Below are positions 1-12,687 of a stretch of DNA of 64,000 bases, in pieces. The stretch is from Nesterenkonia marinintestina (GTDB taxonomy: Bacteria; Actinomycetota; Actinomycetes; Actinomycetales; Micrococcaceae). The notes beneath the pieces are model-generated. The model was not told the DNA's origin. It searched no databases and saw only the letters and a program-made list of their open reading frames with translations. The stretch's first letter is position 1, and each line of letters starts with the position of its first letter. The position numbers and the translations under genes were made by a program. The stretch is from assembly GCF_025420485.1 (NCBI RefSeq), contig NZ_JAOEFD010000001.1, positions 1 to 64,000 of the forward strand. Reading direction: 5' to 3'.

Positions 1-203
1 TGGCGCTGATGAATTCCGGTAGGCTATTCGCATTGTTGCCCGTGATGACGCGGATAATCCGTAACAACTCGCGGCGTCATGCGGCAGCGATTAGTGGGGG
101 GACACGCCGTGAAACACTCCGTGGAACCATCCGGCCTGCCCACTCTCCACAGGTGTGGACTCTGTTGAGAGAAGTCCAGAACCCGGCGTGTCGCGGCGTG
201 TCG
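1..203. other. End of integrated element, no gene recognised
   Basis: This stretch lies downstream of the integrase gene and should belong to the integrated element that continues left of the window. I see no credible gene, RNA or strong hairpin in it. Confidence 0.5.
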
Positions 204-1565
204 TCAGGCCTTCGGGAGGATCTTCACGTCGGCAGGAATGAACTCTTTAGACCCCGGCTTCGAGTGAGGCTGGACCACCACGCGGACAAGGGCCTTCACC
301 ACTCCCCTACGTCGGTGGAGGTCCAAGGCATCCCACGCGGCGCGGATATCGTCGGCGTCCGTCAGGGACTCCAGGCCCGGGGTCATCGAGCTGGCGGCCA
401 GTTGCTCATGAATCTCTCCCAGGCGCTCCTGCAGGCGCTCATTGGCAGCCCGCAGCTGCGCAGCGGTCAACTCACCGTCTGCGAACTCGGTTCCGAGTTG
501 GACCTCCCGCTGTCTGAGGACATCGGCCTGCTCGACCAGAGCGTCCCTGTCGGGGGCGTTCGACTGAGGGGCCGCGGCCAGTCCATGACGCTGGATATAG
601 CTGAGGATGAACCGGGTCACCATCTCGTCCAGGTTGTCGGCCTTGCGAGAGACATGGCCCAGGCTGGGGCATGTGTAGTAGCGCACCTTGTCACGACGAT
701 TCTTCGAGCGGAGGCCGGCTCCGCATACGCCGCATTCGGCCACAGTTGATAGGAGGTACTTGACCCTGTTGTGTCCGGGACCGACCCGACGATGCCGCAT
801 CTTAGAGACTGAGGCCTCCCATGTCTCCCGCGGTACCAGTGCGGGCCATTGAGCTTCCGTGCCCGTCAGCTCGCCCTTATGCTGCGCGAGGCCCGCGTAC
901 CGGGGGTTCAGCAGCACCCGGCGGACACCGCCCTGAGTCCATTGGTTCCCGCGGGTTGTGAGGATGCCGGCCGCGTTGAGCTGGCGTGCGAGCTGGTGCT
1001 GGGGTGTGCCGGCCAGGAAGTCCGTGAACAGTTGACGGACTGCCTCAGCTTCACGGGGCTCCGGGGTGACCTTGTCGGCCTGATATCCGAACGGTCGTTC
1101 GACTCCCCACGGCTTGCCCAGCTCGGCCCGCTGCTTGGCTGCTCGCTTCTGTCGAAACGACTTCATCTCGATCTCGCCACGGCTGAACGCGGCCTTGGTC
1201 CGTGCGAACGTGCGGCCGTTGACGGTGGTGAGGTCGGCCTCTCCGTTCGCGGTCACCAGGGCCAGGCCATGCTTCTCGGCGGCGTCGATCCAATCCTCAA
1301 GCTGGCGCGGCTGGCGGGTCAGGCGGTCTAGGTCGAACGTCACCAGCGCGTTGAACTTCCCGGCGACATAGTCCTGGCGCAGCTGCTCATAGCCTGGGCG
1401 CGTGACAGAATCCTTGTACGCCGACACGCTGTTGTCTGTGTACACGCCGATGAGGTTCCACCCGCGCCGCTCGACTATGGCGCGGCAGTCCTCCTCCTGT
1501 CGCTTGACCCCTAGCTCGTCGCCGTGGCGGTCGTATGACAGCCTCGTATAGATCGCTGCTCGCAT
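204..1565 (-). CDS. Serine recombinase (integrase) of a mobile element
   Basis: A 453-residue serine-type site-specific recombinase. The N-terminal resolvase domain (about 1-150) starts with the nucleophile motif IYTRLS (Ser at residue 10) and holds the family motif LDRLTRQ. A Recombinase domain follows (about 155-255), then a zinc-ribbon-like segment with CGVCG near residue 279 and a further Cys in YYTCP, and a Glu/Arg-rich C-terminal helix region. This is the architecture of phage and ICE large serine integrases, which recombine short attP and attB sites without homology. The start codon lies only about 30-40 bp from the point where tadB homology breaks, the usual place for an integrase gene beside its own attachment site. 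The rest of the element must lie to the left, so I cannot say whether it is a prophage, an ICE or smaller. Confidence 0.93.
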   Translation of the reverse strand: MRAAIYTRLSYDRHGDELGVKRQEEDCRAIVERRGWNLIGVYTDNSVSAYKDSVTRPGYEQLRQDYVAGKFNALVTFDLDRLTRQPRQLEDWIDAAEKHGLALVTANGEADLTTVNGRTFARTKAAFSRGEIEMKSFRQKRAAKQRAELGKPWGVERPFGYQADKVTPEPREAEAVRQLFTDFLAGTPQHQLARQLNAAGILTTRGNQWTQGGVRRVLLNPRYAGLAQHKGELTGTEAQWPALVPRETWEASVSKMRHRRVGPGHNRVKYLLSTVAECGVCGAGLRSKNRRDKVRYYTCPSLGHVSRKADNLDEMVTRFILSYIQRHGLAAAPQSNAPDRDALVEQADVLRQREVQLGTEFADGELTAAQLRAANERLQERLGEIHEQLAASSMTPGLESLTDADDIRAAWDALDLHRRRGVVKALVRVVVQPHSKPGSKEFIPADVKILPKA

Positions 1566-1990
1566 ACCCTCATGGTACGCCTACTTGACACGCTCGGATG
1601 GATGAGGGCCTCGGGCAGAGACATGCCGGCACGCACGGCGGAGCGGAGATGGTCGACGGCGTCTGGCCAGATCTCGCGGAGCACGGCCTGGCGCTTATCG
1701 GCCTGCCAGCGGAGCAGTGCGATCGGGACGACGGCACCGAAGGCGCCGAAGCAGAGCGCCAGCGGCAGCGCCGTAGTGAGCACCAGCACCGTCAGGAAGC
1801 TCACGAGACCGCACCCGACCATGGCGGTCAGCACTCCTGAGACGCCCACTCGCCTGTGGCCGGCCTCTGCCAGGAGGCGGCGGAGGCGGCTGGGGCGTCT
1901 TGACGCGGCGCGTCTCCGAGGCCTCGGCCAGAACGACCACCAGATCAGCAGCAGTCCGATGCCGAGAGTCAGTCCCAGTGCGACGCTCAC
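1511..1990 (-). pseudogene. tadB: tadB, 5' part, cut by element insertion
   Basis: N-terminal part of a TadB-like inner-membrane platform protein of the Tad/Flp pilus (type II secretion F family). It starts with a membrane segment (about residues 2-22), then an Arg-rich stretch, two further hydrophobic segments (about 53-90), and the start of the cytoplasmic domain with the typical AGMSLPEAL motif. Family resemblance stops right after that motif near position 1,600. The frame then runs through the element junction into the integrase gene in another frame and ends at 1,511, giving about 27 foreign residues. TadB proteins are normally about 280-320 residues, so this 159-residue product lacks its main domain. 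The start overlaps the tadA stop by 4 nt (ATGA). The remaining 3' part would lie at the far side of the element, outside the window. Confidence 0.85.
1570..1603. other. Element/chromosome junction (att site)
   Basis: tadB-like coding ends near 1,600-1,612 and the integrase start codon is at 1,565, so the recombined attachment site must lie in this interval. It contains an imperfect palindrome, GTACGCCTAC on the plus strand (8 of 10 positions symmetric). The 2-bp crossover cannot be placed without the left junction or an empty site. Confidence 0.55.
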
Positions 1991-3222
1991 AGCTCGACTC
2001 CTGCACGGGCGATGCGCACCTTCGCATCATCGTCGAGCTTCTTCGAGTCCAGAACTGCCGACGGGTTCCGACGCAGCTCCCCCTGGCGCCGCTCGAAGAG
2101 GGTCGTGGTCTCGATGGTCTCTCCCTCCACACGTCCTCCCACGGCCAGGATCTCTTCGACATGCCGATGTCCGTCGGAGCTTCGCGCGCAATGGACCACC
2201 AGATCGACGCAGGATGCCACTGTGGGAACGATGAAGCTCCTACTGATGTTCTCCCCGGCGAGCAGCGGAAGGGTGCAGATCTTGGTCAGAGCGTCATGGG
2301 CGCTGTTGGCGTGGACGGAGGCCATACCGCCGAGTCCGCTGTTCAGAGCCACCAGCATGTCCAGGCTCTCAGCCTCACGGACCTCACCCACGATGAGCCT
2401 GTCTGGACGCATCCGAAGAGCCTCCTTGACGAGTCGACGCAGGGGGATCTCTCCCTCGTCCTCGAGATTCGCCTGGCGACATTGCATCGCGACCACGTCG
2501 CGCAGGGGCAGCTGCAGCTCGAAGATCTCCTCCACAGTGATCACCCGCTCCCGGGGACCGACTGAGGCTCCGAGGCAGTTCAGCATGGTGGTCTTGCCGG
2601 CCTGGGTTGCCCCGGACACGAGGATGTTGAATCCCGAGCCGACGCACGCCTCAAGCACGGCGGCGGCCTCATCACTGAGTGAACCGCCCTGCACGAGGTC
2701 TCGCAGACCGGTGGCGCGACTGACGAACTTGCGGATGTTCACGGCCCAATGACGGCGGGTGATATCCGGAATGACCACATGGAGTCGCGAACCGTCGGGC
2801 AACGCTGCGTCGACGAACGGCGACGAGAGATCCAGGCGACGTCCCGAACTCTTCAGCATCCGCTCGACCAGATCGCGTATCCGCTCTTCGGAAAGAGTGA
2901 TCGAGGTGAGTTCGGACCGTCCGTGACGAGCCACGAAGACCTGCTGCGGTCCGTTGATCCAGATCTCTTCGATGGAATCGTCGTCGAGGAGTGGCTGGAG
3001 CTCACCGAATCCGGCCACAGAGTCCAAGATGTGGCGGACAGCCTCGTTCGCCTCGCCGATCAGCGGCAATGAGGACGTCATAGACCGCCGGTCGTACTCC
3101 ACGACTGCTGACTCGACCAGGTCCTCAAGGTCAGCCTGGTGGTCCTGAGGATCCAGACCGCGCATTCTGATCTGGTCCCGGACCTCATCCTCGACTATGG
3201 TCAGGGCGTCCACCGTGACCAC
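1987..3222 (-). CDS. tadA: TadA/CpaF-family pilus assembly ATPase
   Basis: A 411-residue hexameric secretion ATPase of the TadA/CpaF (GspE/VirB11) superfamily, which powers assembly of Flp-type pili at the cytoplasmic face. The N-terminal domain (about 60-180) carries LDDDSIEEIWING, typical of CpaF. Walker A is GATQAGKT (204-211), a Walker-B-like RLIVGEVR follows at about 275-282, and the His-box region ASVHANSAHDAL is near 301-312. It is full length for the family. It overlaps tadB by 4 nt, as in an intact tadA-tadB-tadC operon. No TadZ/CpaE gene precedes it; a TAXI binding-protein gene lies there instead. With tadB broken, this ATPase probably has no complete partner unless other copies exist. 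Confidence 0.93.
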   Translation of the reverse strand: MVTVDALTIVEDEVRDQIRMRGLDPQDHQADLEDLVESAVVEYDRRSMTSSLPLIGEANEAVRHILDSVAGFGELQPLLDDDSIEEIWINGPQQVFVARHGRSELTSITLSEERIRDLVERMLKSSGRRLDLSSPFVDAALPDGSRLHVVIPDITRRHWAVNIRKFVSRATGLRDLVQGGSLSDEAAAVLEACVGSGFNILVSGATQAGKTTMLNCLGASVGPRERVITVEEIFELQLPLRDVVAMQCRQANLEDEGEIPLRRLVKEALRMRPDRLIVGEVREAESLDMLVALNSGLGGMASVHANSAHDALTKICTLPLLAGENISRSFIVPTVASCVDLVVHCARSSDGHRHVEEILAVGGRVEGETIETTTLFERRQGELRRNPSAVLDSKKLDDDAKVRIARAGVEL

Positions 3223-3540
3223 TCCCCCTCACGTCACTCCGGTTCCGTACATCTGATTCACAGGCCCAACGAACCGCCGCACGACACCGATGTGCTCCCC
3301 GGCGGCGCCGCCACACAATCATGTCCGGCCGAGGACACGCAAAACTGGAGCCTCATACCTGTGGAGAACTTCGCCGATGTCTCCTGTCATCCACAGTTCA
3401 CCGGCGTGCGGGAGTCCCGGCCGGCGTTCGATCCCTTCGATCATCGGAGTCGACGTCGGTAGGGATGGCACCGGCCTCGTGGGAGCACGTCGAGGCTGCA
3501 GAGGGGTTCCTCAGCGACGACAGGCTCCCCGGAGAGCGGA
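3223..3540. other. Gap between tadA and the TAXI gene
   Basis: 318 bp without a credible gene. It should hold the tadA promoter and the end of the TAXI transcript. I see no strong terminator hairpin or clear -10 box. The missing pilus gene tadZ would be expected here but is absent. Confidence 0.5.
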
Positions 3541-4548
3541 TCAGGGCTCCTCGACGTCGTTCTCCTCGTAGTACCTCTCAGCGCCGGGGTGCATCGGCCC
3601 GTCGGCCAGGCCCAGCAGCGCGTTGTCGTGGCCGATCATCTCGCCCTGGGGCAGTGTGATGCGGTCAGACTCCTCGAAGATGAGCTCGGTCATCTCATAG
3701 ACCATGTCCTCACTGACCTGGGTCGTAGAAGCGAAGAGTGCGGCGGTCACAGAGATCGTGGTGACGTCCTCCTCCATGAAGTCATAGGCATCCGACTCCA
3801 TGGTGAACTCGTCGAAGTCAGTGTCCTCCGTCAGTTCATCGATGACGTCCGGATCGATTCCCAGGAGTGAGATGTCGGTGCCTGCGGCCAGCTGATCGAC
3901 CGCGGCGTTCGGAGTCCCCACGGTGAACAGGGAGGCATCGATGTTCCCGTCCTGCATCAGGGACGCGGAGTCGTTGAACTCCTCCTCGTACGGGGTGTAG
4001 TCGCCCTCCTCGATGCCGTGGGCCTCGAGGATCGCGTCAGAGATGGCTCGGGTGCCTGACCCCGGTGCCCCGACCGCGACGGACTTGCCCTCGAGGTCCT
4101 CGATGGATTCGATCCCCGCCGAGTCCGCGACGATCAGGTGCATCGCCTCGGGGTACAGTCCGGCGACCCACCCGACGTTGGAGACATCGGCGTCCTCGAA
4201 GTCACCGTCGCCGCGGATGGCCATGGCGAACGTGTCGGACTGTGCCAGACCGAGCTGCATGTCCTCCTGGGAGATCCCCCCGATGTTGGCGACCGAAGCG
4301 TCACTGGTGATCGTCTCGACGGTCAGGTCGTCGATGTTCTCCTCCCATATCTGGGCGTACTCCCCCGCCAGGGGGTAGTAGACGCCGGTGGTCCCGGCGG
4401 TACCGAACGTCAGAGTGTCGACGAAGTCCTCTTCATCGCCGATCTCCAGGTCCTCGGCGTCGGACTGATCATCATCGGAGCCGCATCCGGCCAGCAGGAC
4501 GAGCCCCGAGATCGATGCGATGGCCAATGCGGTTCTGCGGATAGACAT
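3541..4548 (-). CDS. TAXI-family TRAP transporter substrate-binding lipoprotein
   Basis: A 335-residue extracytoplasmic solute receptor of the TAXI group (TRAP-associated extracytoplasmic immunogenic), which delivers small organic acids such as glutamate or dicarboxylates to a TRAP permease. The signal peptide ends in a lipobox LLAGC with Cys22 as lipidation site. An Asp/Glu-rich linker follows, then the TAXI fold, with TFGTAGTTGVYYPLAG near the start and DLEGKSVAVGAPGSGTR in the middle, both typical. The protein is extremely acidic, as in halotolerant actinobacteria. No TRAP membrane subunit (DctM or the fused DctQM of TAXI systems) lies nearby, so it is an orphan here. A purine-rich site (AGAGAGGACGATGAGG) lies just before the ATG. 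Confidence 0.92.
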   Translation of the reverse strand: MSIRRTALAIASISGLVLLAGCGSDDDQSDAEDLEIGDEEDFVDTLTFGTAGTTGVYYPLAGEYAQIWEENIDDLTVETITSDASVANIGGISQEDMQLGLAQSDTFAMAIRGDGDFEDADVSNVGWVAGLYPEAMHLIVADSAGIESIEDLEGKSVAVGAPGSGTRAISDAILEAHGIEEGDYTPYEEEFNDSASLMQDGNIDASLFTVGTPNAAVDQLAAGTDISLLGIDPDVIDELTEDTDFDEFTMESDAYDFMEEDVTTISVTAALFASTTQVSEDMVYEMTELIFEESDRITLPQGEMIGHDNALLGLADGPMHPGAERYYEENDVEEP

Positions 4549-4725
4549 GCCTCATCGTCCTCTCTTGATCCGAGAAACGTGAACAAGGAAAAGGCAATAC
4601 CGTTTCTCGCATGAAGCTTACCGTAGCCTATGGTGTAGATCACATCAAGGTCCGCAGCGGCGAATCGAAACGTGACGACGGATGGGCATCACCTACGGAC
4701 GGCCCGCGACATTCCACGTCCGTGA

Positions 4726-4731
4726 GTAGTC
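4726..4731 (+). promoter_or_regulatory. Candidate -10 of the E1 gene
   Basis: TAGTCT fits the actinobacterial TANNNT -10. A start about 7 nt downstream would give a leader of about 60 nt ending in the GGAGGTG ribosome site before 4,801. Confidence 0.4.
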
Positions 4732-4800
4732 TGAGACCACGGTCCTCTCGACGGTTCACACGCCACCCCAGAATCAGCTGACTCGAACCGGAGGTGCTGA

Positions 4801-6978
4801 ATGAACAGCATTGACGAACACTTCAGGAATGCCGTCTCTGCGTATCAGGGGGTCGAGGTTCGACCGGAGTCGGAAGTCCCGCCGGTCGTCCTTGAGCGGC
4901 TGTTCCGTGCGCAGGTGCAGAGTCGGCACCTAGATTTCGCGGCCCGCTGGCTCCAGTCGGAAGGCGCCGGCTACTACACCATCGGTTCTGCCGGTCATGA
5001 GAGCAACGCCGCCCTGGGTCTGCTGTCCCGGGTGGACGATCCCGCACTGCTGCACTATCGCTCGGGCGGCTTCTACGCGGCACGAGCACAGATGGCCGGG
5101 CACAGCACCGGTGCTCGGGACGTGCTGATGAGCCTGACCTGCTCGACCGAGGACCCCATCTCAGGGGGACGGCACAAAGTGTTCGGCCACCCGGACCTGA
5201 ACATCATTCCTCAGACATCGACCATCTCCTCGCATATTCCGCGCGCGGTCGGCCTGGCATTCGCCCTGGGATTGAGCCGAGCGGATCAGACGGTCACACC
5301 ATGGTCCGACGACGCGGTGGTCATCTGCAGCTTCGGGGACGCGTCGGTGAACCATTCCACGGCGACCGGAGGATTCAATGCAGCCGGGTACATGAGCCAT
5401 CGCGGCCTGGAGTGTCCCGTGCTCTTCGTCTGCGAGGACAACGACATCGGCATCAGCACCAGGACCCCGGAGGGCTGGACCGAAGCGGCGCTGAGCAGCC
5501 TCCCCGGTGTCGACTACTGGTCCGTCGAGGGGGCCGATCCGGAGTCCCTGCTCCGAGTCACGGAGCAGGCGTTGGACACAGTCCGGGTTCAGCGCCGGCC
5601 CGGTGTCCTGCACCTCCGCACCGTGCGATTCATGGGACATGCAGGCTCGGACGCAGAGATCGCCTACAGGACGCACACGGAGATCGTCGCCGACTACATG
5701 CGTGACCCGGTGCTGAAGACGGCGGAACGGCTGATCGACCAGGGCATCCGAACATCGGCCGAGATCCTTCAGGACTATGAGCAATCACGGGATCAGGTGA
5801 TGGATGTCGCTCGCGAGCTGATCGACACATCGCGTCTGAAGACTCCCCACGACGTGATGAAGCCCCTCTCACTGCCCACCCCCGAGTCATCGACGACCGT
5901 CGTCCCGTCACAACGGGTCAGAGAGCAGACATGGGGTGACCGACTGCCCGAACACACGAAGCCGATGACACTGGCCCAGGCGATCAACACCACCCTGATC
6001 GATCAGATGGCGCACGACCGACAGGTGCTCGTCTTCGGAGAGGACGTCGGGACGAAGGGGGGCGTCTACGGGGTGACTCGGGGGCTGCGCAAGCGGTTCG
6101 GCGGCCGACGCGTCTTCGATACCCTGCTGGACGAGCAGACGATCCTCGGCACAGCGCTGGGCGCCGCCCTCGTGGGCTATACGCCCGTGCCAGAGATCCA
6201 GTACCTGGCCTACCTGCACAATGCAGAGGACCAACTACGCGGCGAAGCCGCGACGCTGCGTTTCTTCTCCGCCGGCCAGTACCAGAACGGGATGGTCGTT
6301 CGGATCGCGGGGCTGGCGTACCAGAAGGGCTTCGGCGGTCATTTCCACAACGACAACTCTCTGGCGGTCCTGCTCGACATTCCGGGGGTCATCGTCGTCG
6401 TGCCCAGCCATCCGGCTGAGGTGCCGGAGCTGCTCCGAACCTGCTTCGACCTTGCCCAGCGCGACGGCCGCGTATGCATCTTCGTCGAACCGATCGCGCT
6501 CTATCACACCCGTGACCTGCATGAGCCCGGCGATGGCCTGTGGACGGCCGGGTACCGTCCGCCCTCTGAGCAGATAGGTGCGTCCCCCCTGGGAGAGATC
6601 ACCCGGCATGGAGACGGCCGGGACCTGCTGATGGTGACGTTCGGAAACGGCCTGCCCATGAGCCTCCGTGCCGCACGGACCTTGGCTGATGCCGACGTAG
6701 CCACGACGACTGTGGACCTGCGTTGGCTCGCTCCCCTTCCGGAGGAGGCGCTTCTGTCGGCGGCCTCCGAGTTCTCCGCCGTCCTCATCGTCGACGAGAC
6801 CCGTCGCAGCGGCGGGGTGTCGGAGCACATCGTCGCTGCTCTGATCGACGGAGGCTACCGAGGCAGACTGGCCCGGATCACCAGCGCCGACAGCTTCATC
6901 CCACTGGGCCCGGCCGCACACACAGTGCTGCTCGGAGAAGACGACATCGTGCAGGCCGCCGAGGATCTTCTGACCTGA
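4801..6978 (+). CDS. Fused alpha+beta E1 of a 2-oxoacid dehydrogenase
   Basis: A 725-residue thiamine-diphosphate enzyme joining the alpha and beta subunits of a branched-chain-type 2-oxoacid dehydrogenase E1 in one chain. The alpha half (about 1-350) has the ThDP/Mg motif starting GDAS at 179-182 and ending at Asn214 in CEDND, and an activation loop FMGHAGSDAE. The beta half (about 390-725) begins MTLAQAINTTL and contains VFGEDVG, with the C-terminal transketolase domain ending in FIPLGPA. E1 should decarboxylate a 2-oxoacid and pass the acyl group to the lipoyl domain of an E2. No E2 or E3 gene lies within the window. GGAGGTG before the ATG supports the start. The substrate cannot be read from sequence; a branched-chain keto acid is likeliest. 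Confidence 0.88.
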   Translation: MNSIDEHFRNAVSAYQGVEVRPESEVPPVVLERLFRAQVQSRHLDFAARWLQSEGAGYYTIGSAGHESNAALGLLSRVDDPALLHYRSGGFYAARAQMAGHSTGARDVLMSLTCSTEDPISGGRHKVFGHPDLNIIPQTSTISSHIPRAVGLAFALGLSRADQTVTPWSDDAVVICSFGDASVNHSTATGGFNAAGYMSHRGLECPVLFVCEDNDIGISTRTPEGWTEAALSSLPGVDYWSVEGADPESLLRVTEQALDTVRVQRRPGVLHLRTVRFMGHAGSDAEIAYRTHTEIVADYMRDPVLKTAERLIDQGIRTSAEILQDYEQSRDQVMDVARELIDTSRLKTPHDVMKPLSLPTPESSTTVVPSQRVREQTWGDRLPEHTKPMTLAQAINTTLIDQMAHDRQVLVFGEDVGTKGGVYGVTRGLRKRFGGRRVFDTLLDEQTILGTALGAALVGYTPVPEIQYLAYLHNAEDQLRGEAATLRFFSAGQYQNGMVVRIAGLAYQKGFGGHFHNDNSLAVLLDIPGVIVVVPSHPAEVPELLRTCFDLAQRDGRVCIFVEPIALYHTRDLHEPGDGLWTAGYRPPSEQIGASPLGEITRHGDGRDLLMVTFGNGLPMSLRAARTLADADVATTTVDLRWLAPLPEEALLSAASEFSAVLIVDETRRSGGVSEHIVAALIDGGYRGRLARITSADSFIPLGPAAHTVLLGEDDIVQAAEDLLT

Positions 6979-7185
6979 TCCACGGACCGGTCGAGTCGCC
7001 GCACGAGCACAGCCGACCGACCATTCGCAACAGGTGCGCCCATCCGCCTGTGGACAGACCGCTTCATAGGTGCGCTCATCCACAGGTCACGTGGATCGCC
7101 CCTCCCCCGGCCTCGTCCGGGTCCTAGCCTGGGCCGCAGCACACCCCCGTGCCGCACCCGCCGAACTGCTGAAGGATCCTCTCCG

Positions 7186-10100
7186 ATGCCCCTCGTCGTG
7201 AGTCTCGTCCATCACCCAGCTTCCGTATCTCGGGAGCAGTGGCGACGACTGCGCGCGTCCGCTCCCGGCCCTCACCCGCATGAGGTCCGCCTCGCCGTCG
7301 CCGGGGGCCATCAGGCCCCCGGTGCGGAGATCCGTACCGCGCTGCGGGATTGGGTCGCCCAGGTGCTCGGGGGTCCTCCGCACCGGGTCCCGGCGATGTA
7401 TGTCGCTGGATCGGACCTGTCCCACATCGCGTCCGGCTCCGCGCAGATCCATCCTGGGATGGTGGTGACCCTCATGCCTGACGAGCCGGCAGACGGTCCT
7501 GTCGCACGGGCGGACTTCGGTCTGAGACTCTGCGTGGACCAGGGACCCGACGCCGGTCAGGTCTACGCGCTGGGGCGCGGGTCCAGCGATGTGGGCCGCG
7601 CAGCCGACCAGGTGCGCATCGCTGATCCACGGTTGGGCCGCCGGCATCTGACCATCGAGGTCGGCACTCGGTCGGTCCGACTCCGTCGAAGCCCGGAAGG
7701 ATCCCGCCGACGTCGTCCCAGGACCGACACCTGGTCCGCCGAATCACCGCTCGTCATCGGTGACTCCACGCTGACCCTGCTCAACACAGTCTCACCTGCG
7801 CCGACGTCACGACGATGGCCGCCTCCGTCCGAGGTGGTGACGGAGAAGCCCCCCGAGGGTCGGCACCGAATGATGCTGATCATGGCACTGGTGCCGATGG
7901 TGATAGGTATCGTCCTGGTGACCGTCACAGGAATGTGGTTCTTCCTGCTCTTCAGCGCCGTCTCAGCTCTCGTCGCCGGTGCGACGGTCATCGACGCCCG
8001 ACGCCGACGTCGACGATTCCGCGCCGCAGTCTCACAGGCCGCGCACCGGTGGGCCGAGTCTGTGGACTCCGCCTGTCCGACGCCCGGACGGCTGGCGGCG
8101 ACGATCGGTGAGGCTGCGGGCCGCCCGAACAGACTGGCTGCCGGAGCCCTCGGACTGGTTGAGGACCGTCCGCCGTTCCGTGTGCTGCGGTGCGGTCGGG
8201 CCGTTCTGACTCCAGACCTCTCGATGCCCTCCGGCATCGACATGCCGGAGCGGACCCGGGTCGACGCAGTCCTGGCGCTCGAGACACCGGCGGCTCATGC
8301 CACTGAGATCGCAGGCCCGGCCCGAGGCCTCGAACGCACAGCCCGATGGCTCGTCGTCCAGATGCTCATCCGTCCAGCTCCGGAACGCGGCACCGTGCTC
8401 CTGGCAGGACGAGCCCGATCCGTCCTCTCAGACCTCACACCAGAACTGCCTGACCTGATCCGCTCGAATGACGCTGCGGACATCAGAGAGTTCCTCGACA
8501 CACCTGTCACCCCGATCCTCGTGTGCCGCAGCGAGGATCTTCGTGATCGTGAGGGAGACCCCACTGCACTGGCACGCCGCGCCGAGGACCTCCAGCGACA
8601 GGGCTGGCACGTGATGGTCCTCCGCCCCGAGGGTGCCGGCGGTCATCCGATCACCTGCCGGATCCGCCTGGACCTGACAGCCCACATACGAGAAGAGACG
8701 GATACAGACGGCCGCAGGTTCACCAGCGCCGAGAATGTGCTCGTCGACGGAGTGTCCGACGGGACGGCAGCTCGGATGCTGCGTCGTGCTCTTCCCTCCA
8801 GTACGAGCCTCACGGGAGCGACTCACATTCCGGACTATGTCACTGAGCAGCTACCGGAGCAGCTCATGGTCAGGAGCGCCGCGCAAGACCTCGCGACCGT
8901 TCTGGGAGTCTCGAGGAACGGGCCCCTGAGCCTGGACCTGGTGACCGACGGTCCACATATCCTCGTCGCCGGGACCTCAGGCTCCGGCAAGTCTGAGTTC
9001 CTGAAGGCACTGATGCTCAGCTGGGCCGGTCGGTACGGACCCGACGAACTGAACTTCATGCTCTTCGACTTCAAAGGCGGAGCCGCGTTCCGACGGATCG
9101 CCGACATCGAACATTCGCTGGGTCTCGTCACGGACCTCTCCAAGGCCCAGGCGGAGAGGACTCTCGAGGCCGTCCGCTCAGAACTGACCCGGCGGGAGGA
9201 GCTGTTCCTGGAGGCCGACGCCGCAGACTACCCCGAATTCAGGCGACGCCGACCCCGGGAACCGCTGCCTCGGATCCTCGTCGTGATCGACGAGTTCCGG
9301 ATCTTCTCCCATGAGCTGCCGGACACGATGGACGAGCTGATGCGCCTGTCCACCCTGGGGCGCTCTCTCGGACTTCACCTGATCCTGTCCACCCAGCGTC
9401 CGCAGGGGGTCGTCACCGCCGACATCCGTGCGAACATCGGGGCAGTCGTCGCACTCCGGCTGCGCAGCTCTGACGAGTCGCAGGACCTGGTCGGCACACC
9501 GGCCGCTGCAGATATCTCACGGCGGTCTCCGGGACGAGGCATCATCGCGCGACCGGGAGAACCGCCGCAGGAGTTCCAGAGCGCCCTCATCGTTCCCCGG
9601 ACCTCTGGACTCCGAGCACACCCGGCACAGGAGGTCGGACGTGAGATGCCGCGCGAACACGATCACGAGAACGCTGATGCGGTCGCCGCCGTGGTGGGGC
9701 AGGAGGTGTCGGTCCGCAGCCTGCGACGCAGCCACACGCCGGTGCTCGAGCCCCTTCCTGGCTGGTTGCACGTCTGCGGGGACGACCGCGCGGCAGGCGC
9801 CGCGGTCGTCGGTCGCATCGACAGACCTTCGCACCAAGCCCAGGACGCCCTCGTGTTCGATCCTGAGGAGAGTACGAGCCTCGGACTGATCGGCGAGGCC
9901 GCCTCGGGAGGACGTGAAGCGCTGCGGATGCTCGCACTCCAACTCCTCGACGGTCCTCACCGGGTCCACCTCTACCTGCTCGACGCCGACGGTGCGCTCG
10001 AGGGCCTCCAAGAACATGCACGCGTCGGAGCCGCGCTCACCGACGAACACCGTCCGGAGTTCGACCACCTGCTGCTTCGGCTGAAGGATGAGCTCTCCCG

Positions 10101-11073
10101 CCGCCGAACCCGTCCGGGGCCTCACACGCCGATCGTGGTGCTCATGAGCGGGCACAGCCAGTGGCACGCGCTGAATCAGTCCTTCGGCGCCGCCGGGATG
10201 GATCATGTGATGGGCACCCTGATCGCAGAGGGCGCTCAGGTCGGCATCACCGTAGTCATCTCGGGCGGACGCGAACTCGCCTCCGGAAAGCTCGGTGCGC
10301 GGTTCTCGCGTCGCGTCTACCTCCCCTACGGCGTCTCCCAGGACTCACGGTTCCTCTGGCCCAAGCTCCGGGAGGTGGATCCGGTCCCCGGCCGCGGAGT
10401 ACACGTCAGCCCGGAGACGCCGGCCGCAGGTCACGAAGTTCAGCTCGCGGGTGCGTGCGACGTGGACCGCCCGAGATCACCGTCCCCGGACGAACCGCGA
10501 CCAGATATCGTCGTGAGACCTCTGCCCGAGGACTTGGCCCTCAGCCAGCTCGCTCATCGACCCGGTGAGGACGAGGCTGTCCTCGGCGTGCGGCAGTTCA
10601 GCCTCGCTCCCGTCACGCTCACCCCTGCAGGTGTGACTCTCGTGTCGGGTGCACCGGGCACAGGCAGGACCAATGCCCTGCGAGTCATCGAGGCCCAGAT
10701 CCCCAAGACCCTGTGGGTCGGACCGCAGACCTCTGTTCCGACCCATCTCGACGAGGCGCCTTCCCTGGTGCTGGTCGACGACGCCGACCGGTGCACGCCG
10801 GCACATCATCGCCTGGTCGAACAGTGCCTCGACGCCGGGGCGGCCGTCGTCGCCACAGCTGCGCCCACCCCGGCGCTGTGGAGCCGCATCCCGTGGTCGC
10901 ACCATGCACGGACCGCGGGCGAACATCTCCTCCTCAGTCCGACCCAGCGGTCCCAGTCCGACGTCTTCGCCACTCCGGTGCCCCTGCTCGACCGTCCCGT
11001 ACCAGGCCGTGCGGTCCATCTGCGGAGCACGGGACCGGAGATGATCCAGTGGCTCCGACACGGCGACTCCTGA
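7186..11073 (+). CDS. FHA-FtsK/SpoIIIE (EccC/EssC-like) ATPase
   Basis: A 1,295-residue membrane ATPase of the FtsK/SpoIIIE group with the layout of type VII secretion motors (EssC/EccC). In order: an N-terminal ubiquitin-like or FHA-like region, an FHA domain at about 110-205 (GRGSSDVGR, then the GRRH stretch), two transmembrane segments at about 228-268, a first ATPase domain with Walker A GTSGSGKS (596-603) and Walker B ILVVIDE (697-703), a second domain with no recognisable P-loop, and a third with GAPGTGRT (1,155-1,162), where Arg replaces the Walker lysine. Only the first domain looks able to hydrolyse ATP, as is usual in EssC and EccC. No WXG100, EccB, EccD, EccE or mycosin gene is nearby. 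The ATG follows GAAGGA. Export role is inferred from family; a DNA pump is less likely. Confidence 0.85.
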   Translation: MPLVVSLVHHPASVSREQWRRLRASAPGPHPHEVRLAVAGGHQAPGAEIRTALRDWVAQVLGGPPHRVPAMYVAGSDLSHIASGSAQIHPGMVVTLMPDEPADGPVARADFGLRLCVDQGPDAGQVYALGRGSSDVGRAADQVRIADPRLGRRHLTIEVGTRSVRLRRSPEGSRRRRPRTDTWSAESPLVIGDSTLTLLNTVSPAPTSRRWPPPSEVVTEKPPEGRHRMMLIMALVPMVIGIVLVTVTGMWFFLLFSAVSALVAGATVIDARRRRRRFRAAVSQAAHRWAESVDSACPTPGRLAATIGEAAGRPNRLAAGALGLVEDRPPFRVLRCGRAVLTPDLSMPSGIDMPERTRVDAVLALETPAAHATEIAGPARGLERTARWLVVQMLIRPAPERGTVLLAGRARSVLSDLTPELPDLIRSNDAADIREFLDTPVTPILVCRSEDLRDREGDPTALARRAEDLQRQGWHVMVLRPEGAGGHPITCRIRLDLTAHIREETDTDGRRFTSAENVLVDGVSDGTAARMLRRALPSSTSLTGATHIPDYVTEQLPEQLMVRSAAQDLATVLGVSRNGPLSLDLVTDGPHILVAGTSGSGKSEFLKALMLSWAGRYGPDELNFMLFDFKGGAAFRRIADIEHSLGLVTDLSKAQAERTLEAVRSELTRREELFLEADAADYPEFRRRRPREPLPRILVVIDEFRIFSHELPDTMDELMRLSTLGRSLGLHLILSTQRPQGVVTADIRANIGAVVALRLRSSDESQDLVGTPAAADISRRSPGRGIIARPGEPPQEFQSALIVPRTSGLRAHPAQEVGREMPREHDHENADAVAAVVGQEVSVRSLRRSHTPVLEPLPGWLHVCGDDRAAGAAVVGRIDRPSHQAQDALVFDPEESTSLGLIGEAASGGREALRMLALQLLDGPHRVHLYLLDADGALEGLQEHARVGAALTDEHRPEFDHLLLRLKDELSRRRTRPGPHTPIVVLMSGHSQWHALNQSFGAAGMDHVMGTLIAEGAQVGITVVISGGRELASGKLGARFSRRVYLPYGVSQDSRFLWPKLREVDPVPGRGVHVSPETPAAGHEVQLAGACDVDRPRSPSPDEPRPDIVVRPLPEDLALSQLAHRPGEDEAVLGVRQFSLAPVTLTPAGVTLVSGAPGTGRTNALRVIEAQIPKTLWVGPQTSVPTHLDEAPSLVLVDDADRCTPAHHRLVEQCLDAGAAVVATAAPTPALWSRIPWSHHARTAGEHLLLSPTQRSQSDVFATPVPLLDRPVPGRAVHLRSTGPEMIQWLRHGDS

Positions 11074-11131
11074 CCCGCCGACCGTGAGATCACCAAGCAA
11101 CTGTTCGGCAGGTGGAATCACAGTCGACGGG

Positions 11132-11878
11132 TCAGCCGCGAGCCGACTCATCCAGAAGCTCCGGAGCAGCCGGCGCAAGGTCGGTGTGCTCGGAGTAGGC
11201 GTCTAGCACCGCCTCGGCGACCTTCTCGACCGTCACCTCCGCCACGAGATCCTGTGCCGAGCCGGCGGTCAGCGGATCCCACTCCATGTCCAGAGCCTCA
11301 TAGGCCTCGGAGAGTACGCCCCTGATGGGCGACGAGTCTTCGACGATGATCGCCGAGGAGAACAGCCAGCCGGTGCCGATGACCCGCTGGGCGGAGCCGA
11401 TGAGCTTCACCCGGCGATCCGGCTCCCCCGCAGCGACCCCGTGGATGGTGTGCTCCCCCGGACAGTACTCCCCCGGCAGCTCACCGATCCGAGCGTCCAC
11501 CCCGCACTCCTCCAAGGCGCGGCGCAGCACCTCTCCCAGGAGTGAGAAGCGACCCTGGGAGTCGATGACCGGATCGTCGTCGGGCTGGATATGGTCCACC
11601 ACCAGACACCCATGGTGGTACGCGGCCGCCCGGCCGCCGGCACGTCGCACCAGAGGTGTGAACCCGCGACGCCGGCAGGCCTCAGCGGCCTCATCGAACC
11701 CGGGAAGGCGCCGGTCACGCTGCCCGAACGCCACCGTGGGCTCGGGCCGATACAGACGCAGCATCGGAGGGGTCTCCCCGCGGCGTGTTCCCTGGAGGAG
11801 GGTCACCGCCGCCTGCAGATCTGCGGCCGCCCCCAGCGTCCTGTCCTGCCGCAGGACGGCGAGCTGCCCGGCGATCAT
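11132..11878 (-). CDS. Lipoate-protein ligase family protein
   Basis: A 248-residue protein of the LplA/BPL/LipB fold. The segment RRAGGRAAAYHHG (78-90) matches the RRxSGGGxVYHD substrate-binding loop of lipoate ligases, and KLIGSAQRV (158-166) matches the invariant Lys motif that contacts lipoyl-AMP. The start at 11,878 overlaps the preceding thioesterase stop by 4 nt (ATGA), so the open frame that runs further upstream is a shadow. The loop has fewer glycines than canonical LplA, and it lacks the separate C-terminal domain of E. coli LplA, so it may be a lipoyl- or octanoyl-transferase-like relative. A ligase could serve the E2 partner of the E1 enzyme encoded at 4,801, but they are not in one operon. 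Confidence 0.75.
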   Translation of the reverse strand: MIAGQLAVLRQDRTLGAAADLQAAVTLLQGTRRGETPPMLRLYRPEPTVAFGQRDRRLPGFDEAAEACRRRGFTPLVRRAGGRAAAYHHGCLVVDHIQPDDDPVIDSQGRFSLLGEVLRRALEECGVDARIGELPGEYCPGEHTIHGVAAGEPDRRVKLIGSAQRVIGTGWLFSSAIIVEDSSPIRGVLSEAYEALDMEWDPLTAGSAQDLVAEVTVEKVAEAVLDAYSEHTDLAPAAPELLDESARG

Positions 11879-12687
11879 GCGCCCGGCGCGGGACGGACCG
11901 TGAGGATCTGCTCGCTGCGGCCGAAGGGCCCCTCGACGTCGTGCAGCACCGCCGAGGTCAGCCCGATGCCGTCGGTGCCGTAGGTCTGCTGCGCCTGCAC
12001 TCCCAGCCACTCCCCGACCGGGCTGCGGTGCAGGTGGATCTGAAGGTCCACGTTCGGGAACATCCACGAGTCGGGCCCCGGTTCCACCCGCGGCGCCACC
12101 CCGTTGGCGGTGTCCACCAGGCCCAGCAGACGCACCAACGACGACGTCTCCACCCCATCCACCAAGGGGTACGGAGTGCGCAGCCACACCAGGCCGCGCC
12201 CCGGACGAAGCTGCGGATCCTTCCGGAACTCCAGACCCCGGATGTACCCGCCGGGCCAGACCTCCATACCGTCCCACCGGTCGAACTCCTCCGGCCCCGG
12301 CACAGCCTCGTCCTCCACGACGGCCACCGGGGATGAGTCTCCGGTGATCAGGCGCCAGGCCCGTGCCACGATGCAGGTCCGACCTGCCCCGATCATCTCG
12401 GCCTCGACCAGCTCGATGGTCCGCCCCGGACGGATCATGCGCGTCCTGACCTCGAACTCTCCTCCGGGGATCAGGCCGTGGATGTCCAGGCTCATGCGAG
12501 CGATCCGCATCTCCTCGCGCGGCTCGAAGCGTTCCAACACGTGGGTCAGGATGCCGGTGGCGGGAGCCATGTGCTGCTCATGCGGGTTCCACGCACCCTG
12601 AGCGTGCACCGTCGAGCGGAACCGTCCGTCGCCGAGGTCCTCATAGAAGAAGTCCCCCACCGCCAGCTCTGGGGTCTCGCTGCTCAT
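11875..12687 (-). CDS. Thioesterase family protein (double hot-dog)
   Basis: About 270 residues resembling the acyl-CoA thioesterase family with two tandem hot-dog folds (TesB-like). Visible features are an N-terminal half with GILTHVLERF and MSLDIHGLIPGGEFEV, a middle linker, and a C-terminal half with VDLQIHLHRSPVGEW followed by DGIGLTSAVLHD, the usual second-domain signature. The family hydrolyses acyl-CoA thioesters; the substrate is not evident. I place the start at the ATG at 12,687 because GGAGG lies 9 nt upstream; an ATG six codons earlier has no such site. It is translationally coupled to the lipoate ligase-like gene, which suggests an acyl or lipoyl handling pair. Confidence 0.72.
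   Translation of the reverse strand: MSSETPELAVGDFFYEDLGDGRFRSTVHAQGAWNPHEQHMAPATGILTHVLERFEPREEMRIARMSLDIHGLIPGGEFEVRTRMIRPGRTIELVEAEMIGAGRTCIVARAWRLITGDSSPVAVVEDEAVPGPEEFDRWDGMEVWPGGYIRGLEFRKDPQLRPGRGLVWLRTPYPLVDGVETSSLVRLLGLVDTANGVAPRVEPGPDSWMFPNVDLQIHLHRSPVGEWLGVQAQQTYGTDGIGLTSAVLHDVEGPFGRSEQILTVRPAPGA

Follow-up and report, generated by a model that had tools for sequence, protein, structure and literature searches.

A site-specific insertion in tadB

The window, the whole stretch of 64,000 nucleotides analysed here, is the start of contig C1 (511,638 bases) in a Nesterenkonia marinintestina genome of 2.58 Mb and 37 contigs. A large serine integrase of 453 amino acids is encoded close to the contig edge (204..1565, minus strand) in an unbroken reading frame. 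Resolvase (3e-25, 89.4 bits) and Recombinase (5.7e-16, 59.1 bits) domains from Pfam score above their cut-offs, and the zinc ribbon, at 23.1, falls slightly below its cut-off of 25.3. With this one marginal match, the protein has the domain layout and the size (~450–500 amino acids) of a large serine integrase. The contig begins in element DNA downstream of the integrase (1..203). On the other side, an att-site arm of the element (1566..1598), which does not resemble the corresponding tadB sequence of the relatives compared, runs from the integrase start to the crossover region (1599..1606, minus strand), placing the crossover ~35 bp from the start codon. Next come a 5′ fragment of tadB (1607..1990, minus strand), recognised by tblastn to relatives and by a genus search with intact TadB, and tadA (1987..3222, minus strand). 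The latter encodes an intact ATPase of 411 amino acids (Pfam T2SSE, 9.8e-39), for which 22 of the 30 genomes searched within the genus give a full-length match. Neither megablast of window positions 1–6000 against phage records nor an Rfam search of positions 1–12000 matched anything.

Read from position 1990 on the minus strand, the tadB frame resembles TadB of relatives as far as SLPEAL(I). This leaves a stub of ~130 codons, past which the open reading frame adds ~30 residues before a stop at 1511. An earlier note on this DNA had described such a break beside a serine recombinase gene, next to an intact tadA, and had proposed site-specific integration. Alignment to relatives, the position of the integrase start and the complete tadA bear out that description. 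We located the 3′ half of tadB by searching the contigs of the same genome for T2SSF. It lies at C23:5401–5883, beyond 5.4 kb of element DNA. Next to it come another gene of the T2SSF family, tadC, and then minor-pilin genes, the pilins being recognised by eye. Compared with intact TadB of a congener, the window fragment corresponds to residues 2–138 and the C23 fragment to residues 126–286. A missing 3′ half, or relatives sharing the short tadB, would have spoken against integration; instead, the 3′ half is present, and in the relatives' loci both halves match adjacent stretches of a single uninterrupted gene. Both halves found, element genes on either side and an uninterrupted gene in relatives support the site-specific insertion of an element into tadB. 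Hence, intact TadB is lost, and tadC and the minor pilins are cut off from the upstream tad DNA.

The earlier note had bounded the att core to 1,570–1,603. This overlaps the crossover at its edge only, since we place the crossover at 1599–1606. Here the sequence is CTCATCCA, compared with CTGATTCA at position 5416 of locus L040 (C23). The letters common to both sides of the junction are CT.AT.CA. Hence, the crossover dinucleotide is CT, AT or CA.

Two tad clusters have been described in M. luteus, and both are required for transformation (PMC4322843). The first, tad-1, has separate tadB and tadC genes and pilins of ~150 amino acids with an E[FS] motif; tad-2 has a fused tadBC and a small Flp pilin with EY (PMC4322843). 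The window's cluster has tadA, separate tadB and tadC, and TadE/F pilins of ~150 amino acids with E[FS], again judged by eye. It shares with M. luteus tad-1 (Mlut_07500–07560) the order tadA–tadB–tadC followed by minor pilins with E[FS], a likeness of gene order and motif only, with no sequence comparison by name. By these marks, the insertion may lie in a gene needed for transformation. Contig C4 of the same genome was considered as the home of the missing tadB and rejected, because the tad cluster on that contig is another, undamaged one that includes a Flp pilin. That pilin has 80 amino acids and EY, as in tad-2. The tadB and tadC of this cluster are separate genes, unlike the fused tad-2 gene of M. 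luteus, a difference that counts against the explanation favoured below.

The element and a sibling in the same genome

The window's element is known from its two ends, on C1 and C23; 11 short contigs read N. Its length may be ~10–12 kb, an estimate from a 10.4-kb relative in genome G042. Positions 1–5394 of C23 are element DNA, with the end point set by likeness to contig C12. The genes here encode an SPP1-type portal, a scaffold, a major head protein (Pfam Phage_capsid) and a head-closure connector (Hc1). A head-maturation or morphogenesis match (protease) is weak (2.3e-5), and one of the six scanned proteins matched no family. No tail families were found among these six proteins, from a scan that covered C23 up to 4.2 kb, or in the elements of G042 and G157 that were scanned. 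Homologous elements of ~10 kb, with both ends present, occupy tadA in G042 and G157. The former encodes a large terminase, a portal and a capsid protein, the last two homologous to those of the window's element. The latter, in another genus (L162 916–9376), is a satellite with a serine integrase, large terminase, portal, capsid and connectors, and a weak HNH match; a small terminase is named in neither. Two further stretches, L184 (G018:C4) and L185 (G005:C75), carry elements with terminase, portal and capsid genes related to those of the window's element; no tad gene was found in either stretch.

In a search of phage records, the capsid protein was 27–28% identical to the 12 listed of 329 matches, and all 329 were below 60%. 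This likeness is distant, and hence no helper phage is named. We propose, from its gene content, that the element is a phage satellite, or what is left of one, with capsid genes but no tail genes in view. The closest described type is the capsid-forming PICI (cf-PICI). PICI integrases are usually of the tyrosine type, and the window's element differs in using a serine integrase. It also differs in its lack of a named helper and in the low identity of its capsid to the phage records listed. Shared features, on the published definition of cf-PICIs (PMC10690885), are an integrated element of ~10 kb that has its own portal, capsid and connector, with a protease match that is weak here. That definition also asks for terminase subunits, an HNH endonuclease, a lack of tail genes and packaging with tails of a helper; the large terminase in complete relatives, and the lack of tail genes among the proteins scanned, may be further points in common.

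The genome contains a sibling element as well. At its very end, C36 has 214 bases that are 98.6% identical to window positions 2–215, and the start of C12 is 86% identical to C23 over 4.4 kb and 95% over 376 bp. C36 (L039 8567–10655) encodes a second serine integrase, 49% identical to that of the window, at the point where another reading frame is cut short. This frame resumes on C12 (L054 1–5800) just past the end of the element, and encodes a PKD-like domain, named by eye. Taken together, the shared backbone and the evidence from C36 and C12 indicate two sibling elements that differ in integrase and in insertion site. Recombination across the sequence they have in common could have re-paired the contigs. 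The two integrases are partners in our tree, and identity of the window's integrase to the 29 other tad-adjacent integrases compared is at most 40%.

Recurrent insertion in tad-1

Across the genus, tad-1 tadA was found in 28 of 30 genomes. It is in one piece in 22 (the window's included), broken in G017 and split in five. G017 is a 62% complete genome with broken frames typical of poor assembly, and was counted as unsplit; tadA of G012 is in one piece but has an in-frame TAG. The three single-contig splits are insertions of 8.3 kb (G003; serine integrase and capsid gene), 8.0 kb (G023; serine integrase, Rep and Mob genes) and 10.4 kb (G042; tyrosine integrase, terminase, portal and capsid). 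The other two, each split over two contigs, were kept outside the insertion counts: G040 has two serine integrases 2.0 and 3.4 kb from the break, and G041 only a short resolvase. In G010 it is tadC that is interrupted, by 8.5 kb of element DNA that includes a serine integrase gene. Only the window's genome, G000, has an insertion in tadB among the 30; tadB of G009 matched in two touching frames, with no insert.

For comparison, we considered paralogous ATPases in the same genus. After removal of six short or overlapping weak rows (four of G017, two of G013), all 39 gave one match in one piece (30 at 31–35% identity, nine at 39–43%). The difference between 0/39 split paralogues and 5/28 split tad-1 tadA genes has a p value of 0.01, or 0.07 with the three single-contig cases only. 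Furthermore, 4 of 38 Recombinase-domain matches in the genus adjoin tad-1 genes, against ~0.04 expected if placement were uniform, a naive null in which the cluster is ~0.1% of the genome. This excess argues against chance, but not against the view that tad-1 is a harmless place to insert.

We extended the survey to 395 genomes of the Micrococcaceae. Three of these agree in match coordinates and scores with named genomes, which supports the family assignment: G209 with Kocuria varians NBRC 15358, G074 with Arthrobacter koreensis DSM 16760 and G264 with Sinomonas sp. ASV486. Among the matches listed, 49 outliers, whose best E-value was much weaker than those of congeners, were picked by eye and searched again. 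Thirty-eight were taken up: 27 with a serine integrase at the break, three with a tyrosine integrase and eight outside both groups (G168, G136, G206, G220, G357, G133, G325 and G352). Left out were six genomes with only 40–45% paralogues listed (G197, G079, G264, G080, G188 and G342, the last of which does have tad-1 tadB), three whose genes look full-length or just frame-shifted (G353, G343 and G181) and two with pieces on several contigs (G310 and G334).

In genus and family together, at least 33 insertions, in 31 genomes, have a serine integrase no more than 180 bp from the break in a tad-1 gene. Four more genomes have a tyrosine integrase near the break: G042 and G285, together with G154 and G358, where the distance is ~300 bp. 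These 37 insertions comprise 34 in tadA (33 genomes), two in tadC (G010 and G364) and one in tadB, that of the window. Hence, at least 33 of the 395 sampled genomes have a tadA interrupted by an element whose integrase sits at the break, and no fewer than eight sites are used. The tadC count covers the cases encountered along the way. Judged by best E-values only, tadB appears clearly interrupted in the window's genome alone. Both gene halves are on one contig for 24 of the serine insertions and on two contigs for five (the window's included); a single half was found for four (G047, G263, G404 and tadC of G364). Pfam domains were checked for seven serine and three tyrosine examples, plus G042 and the window's, and a local profile was used for the others; the G318 integrase showed the Resolvase domain only.

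Where both flanks lie on one contig (n = 29, including G206 and G357), the median insertion length is 9.85 kb. Twenty-five are 14 kb or shorter, and the four longest are 25, 29, 59 and 107 kb. No integrase was found at the breaks of G206 and G357. In G206 (L170, L187), the tadA halves are 107 kb apart, which may reflect a large element or a rearrangement, and no integrase was found within ~19 kb of either tadA end. Two genomes carry double insertions. In G377 (L178 157–18351), two different serine-integrase elements lie in series in one tadA, at sites 298 and 329. In G364 (L164 5932–19885), tadA and tadC of one cluster are both cut, each next to a separate serine integrase, and the distal side of the tadC break was not located. 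Separately, tadA of G325 (L182) ends at residue ~170 and its tadC matches from residue 86 only, possibly by deletion beside an insertion; no tadB was found in this genome. In Arthrobacter terricola JH1-1, the tadA match stops at residue 315.

We assigned insertion sites by reading the junctions, and those with an integrase at the break fall at conserved TadA motifs. The most used is EEIW(I/L)N(G/A/S)P at tadA residues ~88–93, occupied by serine integrases in ten genomes and, slightly upstream, by tyrosine integrases in four. Other sites with an integrase at the break are LDLS (~132), SPFVDA (~137), VNIR (~164), SGATQAGK (~210, Walker A), SGLP (298), HDA (310) and NISS (329). Breaks at HVVIPD (~155, G136) and VHA (304, G357) have no integrase located. 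Insertions near the 3′ end of tadA that restore the C-terminus were considered and rejected; in 15 cases the frames enter unrelated sequence.

Integrase lineage and site go together. Single clades of serine integrases correspond to the sites at ~92 (ten), 298 (seven), 329 (five) and 310 (three) and to the two tadC insertions; the label ~137 covers two clades, and G023 sits at 132. The 12 site labels need 11 changes on the tree, the minimum possible, compared with a mean of 32.0 after shuffling. This is a quick tree with a few long branches, and its reference rows were chosen by likeness to the window's integrase. A single integrase family with fixed tad specificity is rejected, because 31 integrases (the sibling's included) form 16 clusters at 50% identity and seven at 40%. 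Thus, distinct serine clades, and tyrosine integrases, converge on tad-1. Among the 54 named loci closest to the window's integrase, only one (L085) has a tad fragment; these relatives do not favour tad genes, which counts against the explanation favoured below. In L085 (1–1518, binned as Armatimonadota), the named integrase nearest to the window's (45% identity) lies 39 bp from a tadA fragment. That fragment is 72% identical to the window's tadA over 46 residues, and the contig is possibly mis-binned actinobacterial DNA.

Possible reasons for the targeting of tad-1 and known precedents

On balance, we favour the explanation that a satellite inserted in tadB, that the tad-1 pilus was lost, and that the case belongs to a recurrent anti-uptake targeting of tad-1 in the family. 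A serine-integrase satellite would have entered tadB by site-specific recombination. With TadB reduced to a stub, and tadC and the minor pilins severed from upstream, assembly of the tad-1 Tad/Flp pilus should fail. Several integrase lineages would have evolved independently to settle on conserved coding sites in tadA, and rarely in tadB or tadC. If tad-1 is part of a DNA-uptake machine, its breakage may keep incoming element-free DNA from replacing resident elements through homologous recombination. The window's cluster fits tad-1, and M. luteus needs tad-1; hence, breakage should hurt DNA uptake. Since both M. luteus clusters are needed for transformation, blocked DNA uptake is the likeliest benefit. 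Insertion, gene breakage, recurrence and the tie between site and integrase clade are observations; the loss of pilus and of transformation in the window's strain, and the selective reason, we infer in this way. That elements gain by breaking competence genes has been argued for comK, comYC, comFA and comM (PMC4774983), and deletion of prophages by transformation has been studied in pneumococcus (PMC12637031). The earlier note's analogy with comK is strengthened by the need for tad-1 in M. luteus transformation (PMC4322843) and by the repeated strikes on the cluster. Deletion of tad-1 tadB in M. luteus lowers transformation more than 100-fold, although this mutant is leaky, the mildest of the tad-1 mutants (PMC4322843). 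That mildness counts against the anti-uptake explanation. So do the double insertions in G377 and G364, where the second insertion gains nothing against competence.

A broader form of this explanation has, in our view, about an even chance of being right. Here, tad-1 of the Micrococcaceae would be a general anti-transformation integration hub, for which satellites, mobilizable and larger elements each evolved integrases for separate conserved motifs within one ATPase gene. Related satellites would have swapped integrase modules, so that one sibling strikes tadB and the other an unrelated gene.

Alternatively, tad-1 could be conserved enough to offer a wide host range and dispensable enough to lose, a safe harbour onto which integrases drift in the absence of any selection for loss of competence. 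The tadA positions tested, ten sites and that of L085, all exceed the median of nucleotide conservation in a set of 25 intact relatives (n = 11, p 0.008), as this alternative would have it. The double insertions fit it too, and so does the sibling element, in a PKD-like-domain gene (by eye) without a known uptake role. However, the paralogous ATPases are whole in all 39 counted, and competence genes are over-represented among published targets of serine integrases (PMC10083194). We regard this alternative as possible, if rather unlikely.

Tad pili are phage receptors in some Gram-negative bacteria. Loss of the pilus might then guard a lysogen from pilus-dependent phages, by superinfection exclusion, and this would also explain insertions anywhere in the cluster. 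Conversely, the annotated elements resemble satellites or a mobilizable element, which need helpers for entry, and the literature consulted on related topics offered no Tad-dependent phage of Micrococcaceae. Receptor removal therefore seems improbable.

Prophages excise from comK in Listeria. Excision of a prophage from spsM in Bacillus is a further precedent for a switch (PMC4191935), and the window's element might likewise excise under some condition and restore tadB. The integrase gene has an unbroken frame, and each tadB half can still be aligned to the intact gene. However, no excised junction or excision factor was seen in the assembled ends of the element, and comparable sites elsewhere show an integrase broken between two frames (in G390) or a loss of cluster DNA (in G325). 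A switch is thus very improbable here. We give almost no credence to chimeric contig ends from misassembly or binning: both tadB halves are near contig ends, and the siblings share sequence that could break assembly, but the junctions lie 1.6 and 5.4 kb inside contigs and the single-contig genomes G003, G176, G186 and G066 show the same kind of tadA insertion.

To return to the favoured explanation, mobile DNA would repeatedly disable the tad-1 pilus in this family, possibly because the pilus serves DNA uptake. Transformation of actinobacteria is little studied, and among the pili used for DNA uptake its Tad pilus stands apart. If elements break Tad this often, natural strains with and without an insert offer a direct way to learn whether uptake through Tad rids chromosomes of mobile DNA. 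The same comparison, if the explanation is true, bears on why competence might be patchy in these genera. Should the hub exist, the insertions would already document an arms race in which Tad-dependent DNA uptake is at stake. At least eight integrase/attB pairs in one conserved gene are also possible integration tools for Kocuria, Arthrobacter and their kin.

Elements in competence genes, including those with serine integrases, are known; we found no Tad version, and the Tad target and the unusual many-site form appear to be new. Titles and abstract starts, in a search with preprints and supplements outside its scope, yielded no report of mobile elements in tad genes. No such insertion was seen in what we consulted of a Gardnerella study of tad and competence and of a Rhodococcus genome paper. 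Neither "tad" nor "actinobacter" occurs in the main text of PMC4774983, and a word search of PMC12637031 did not find "tad". The main text of PMC10083194 lacks the words pilus, secretion and ATPase, and its supplements may list Tad targets. That work states that distant large serine recombinases converge on one gene, with enrichment in DNA competence genes (Durrant 2022, PMC10083194), and the convergence of distant serine integrases on a single gene is what tad-1 shares with it. Elements in comK, comYC, comFA, comM and comEC (Croucher 2016, PMC4774983) likewise share with ours site-specific insertion and the convergence of divergent integrases. They differ in target, which here is the actinobacterial Tad/Flp pilus, struck at eight or more sites in one gene.
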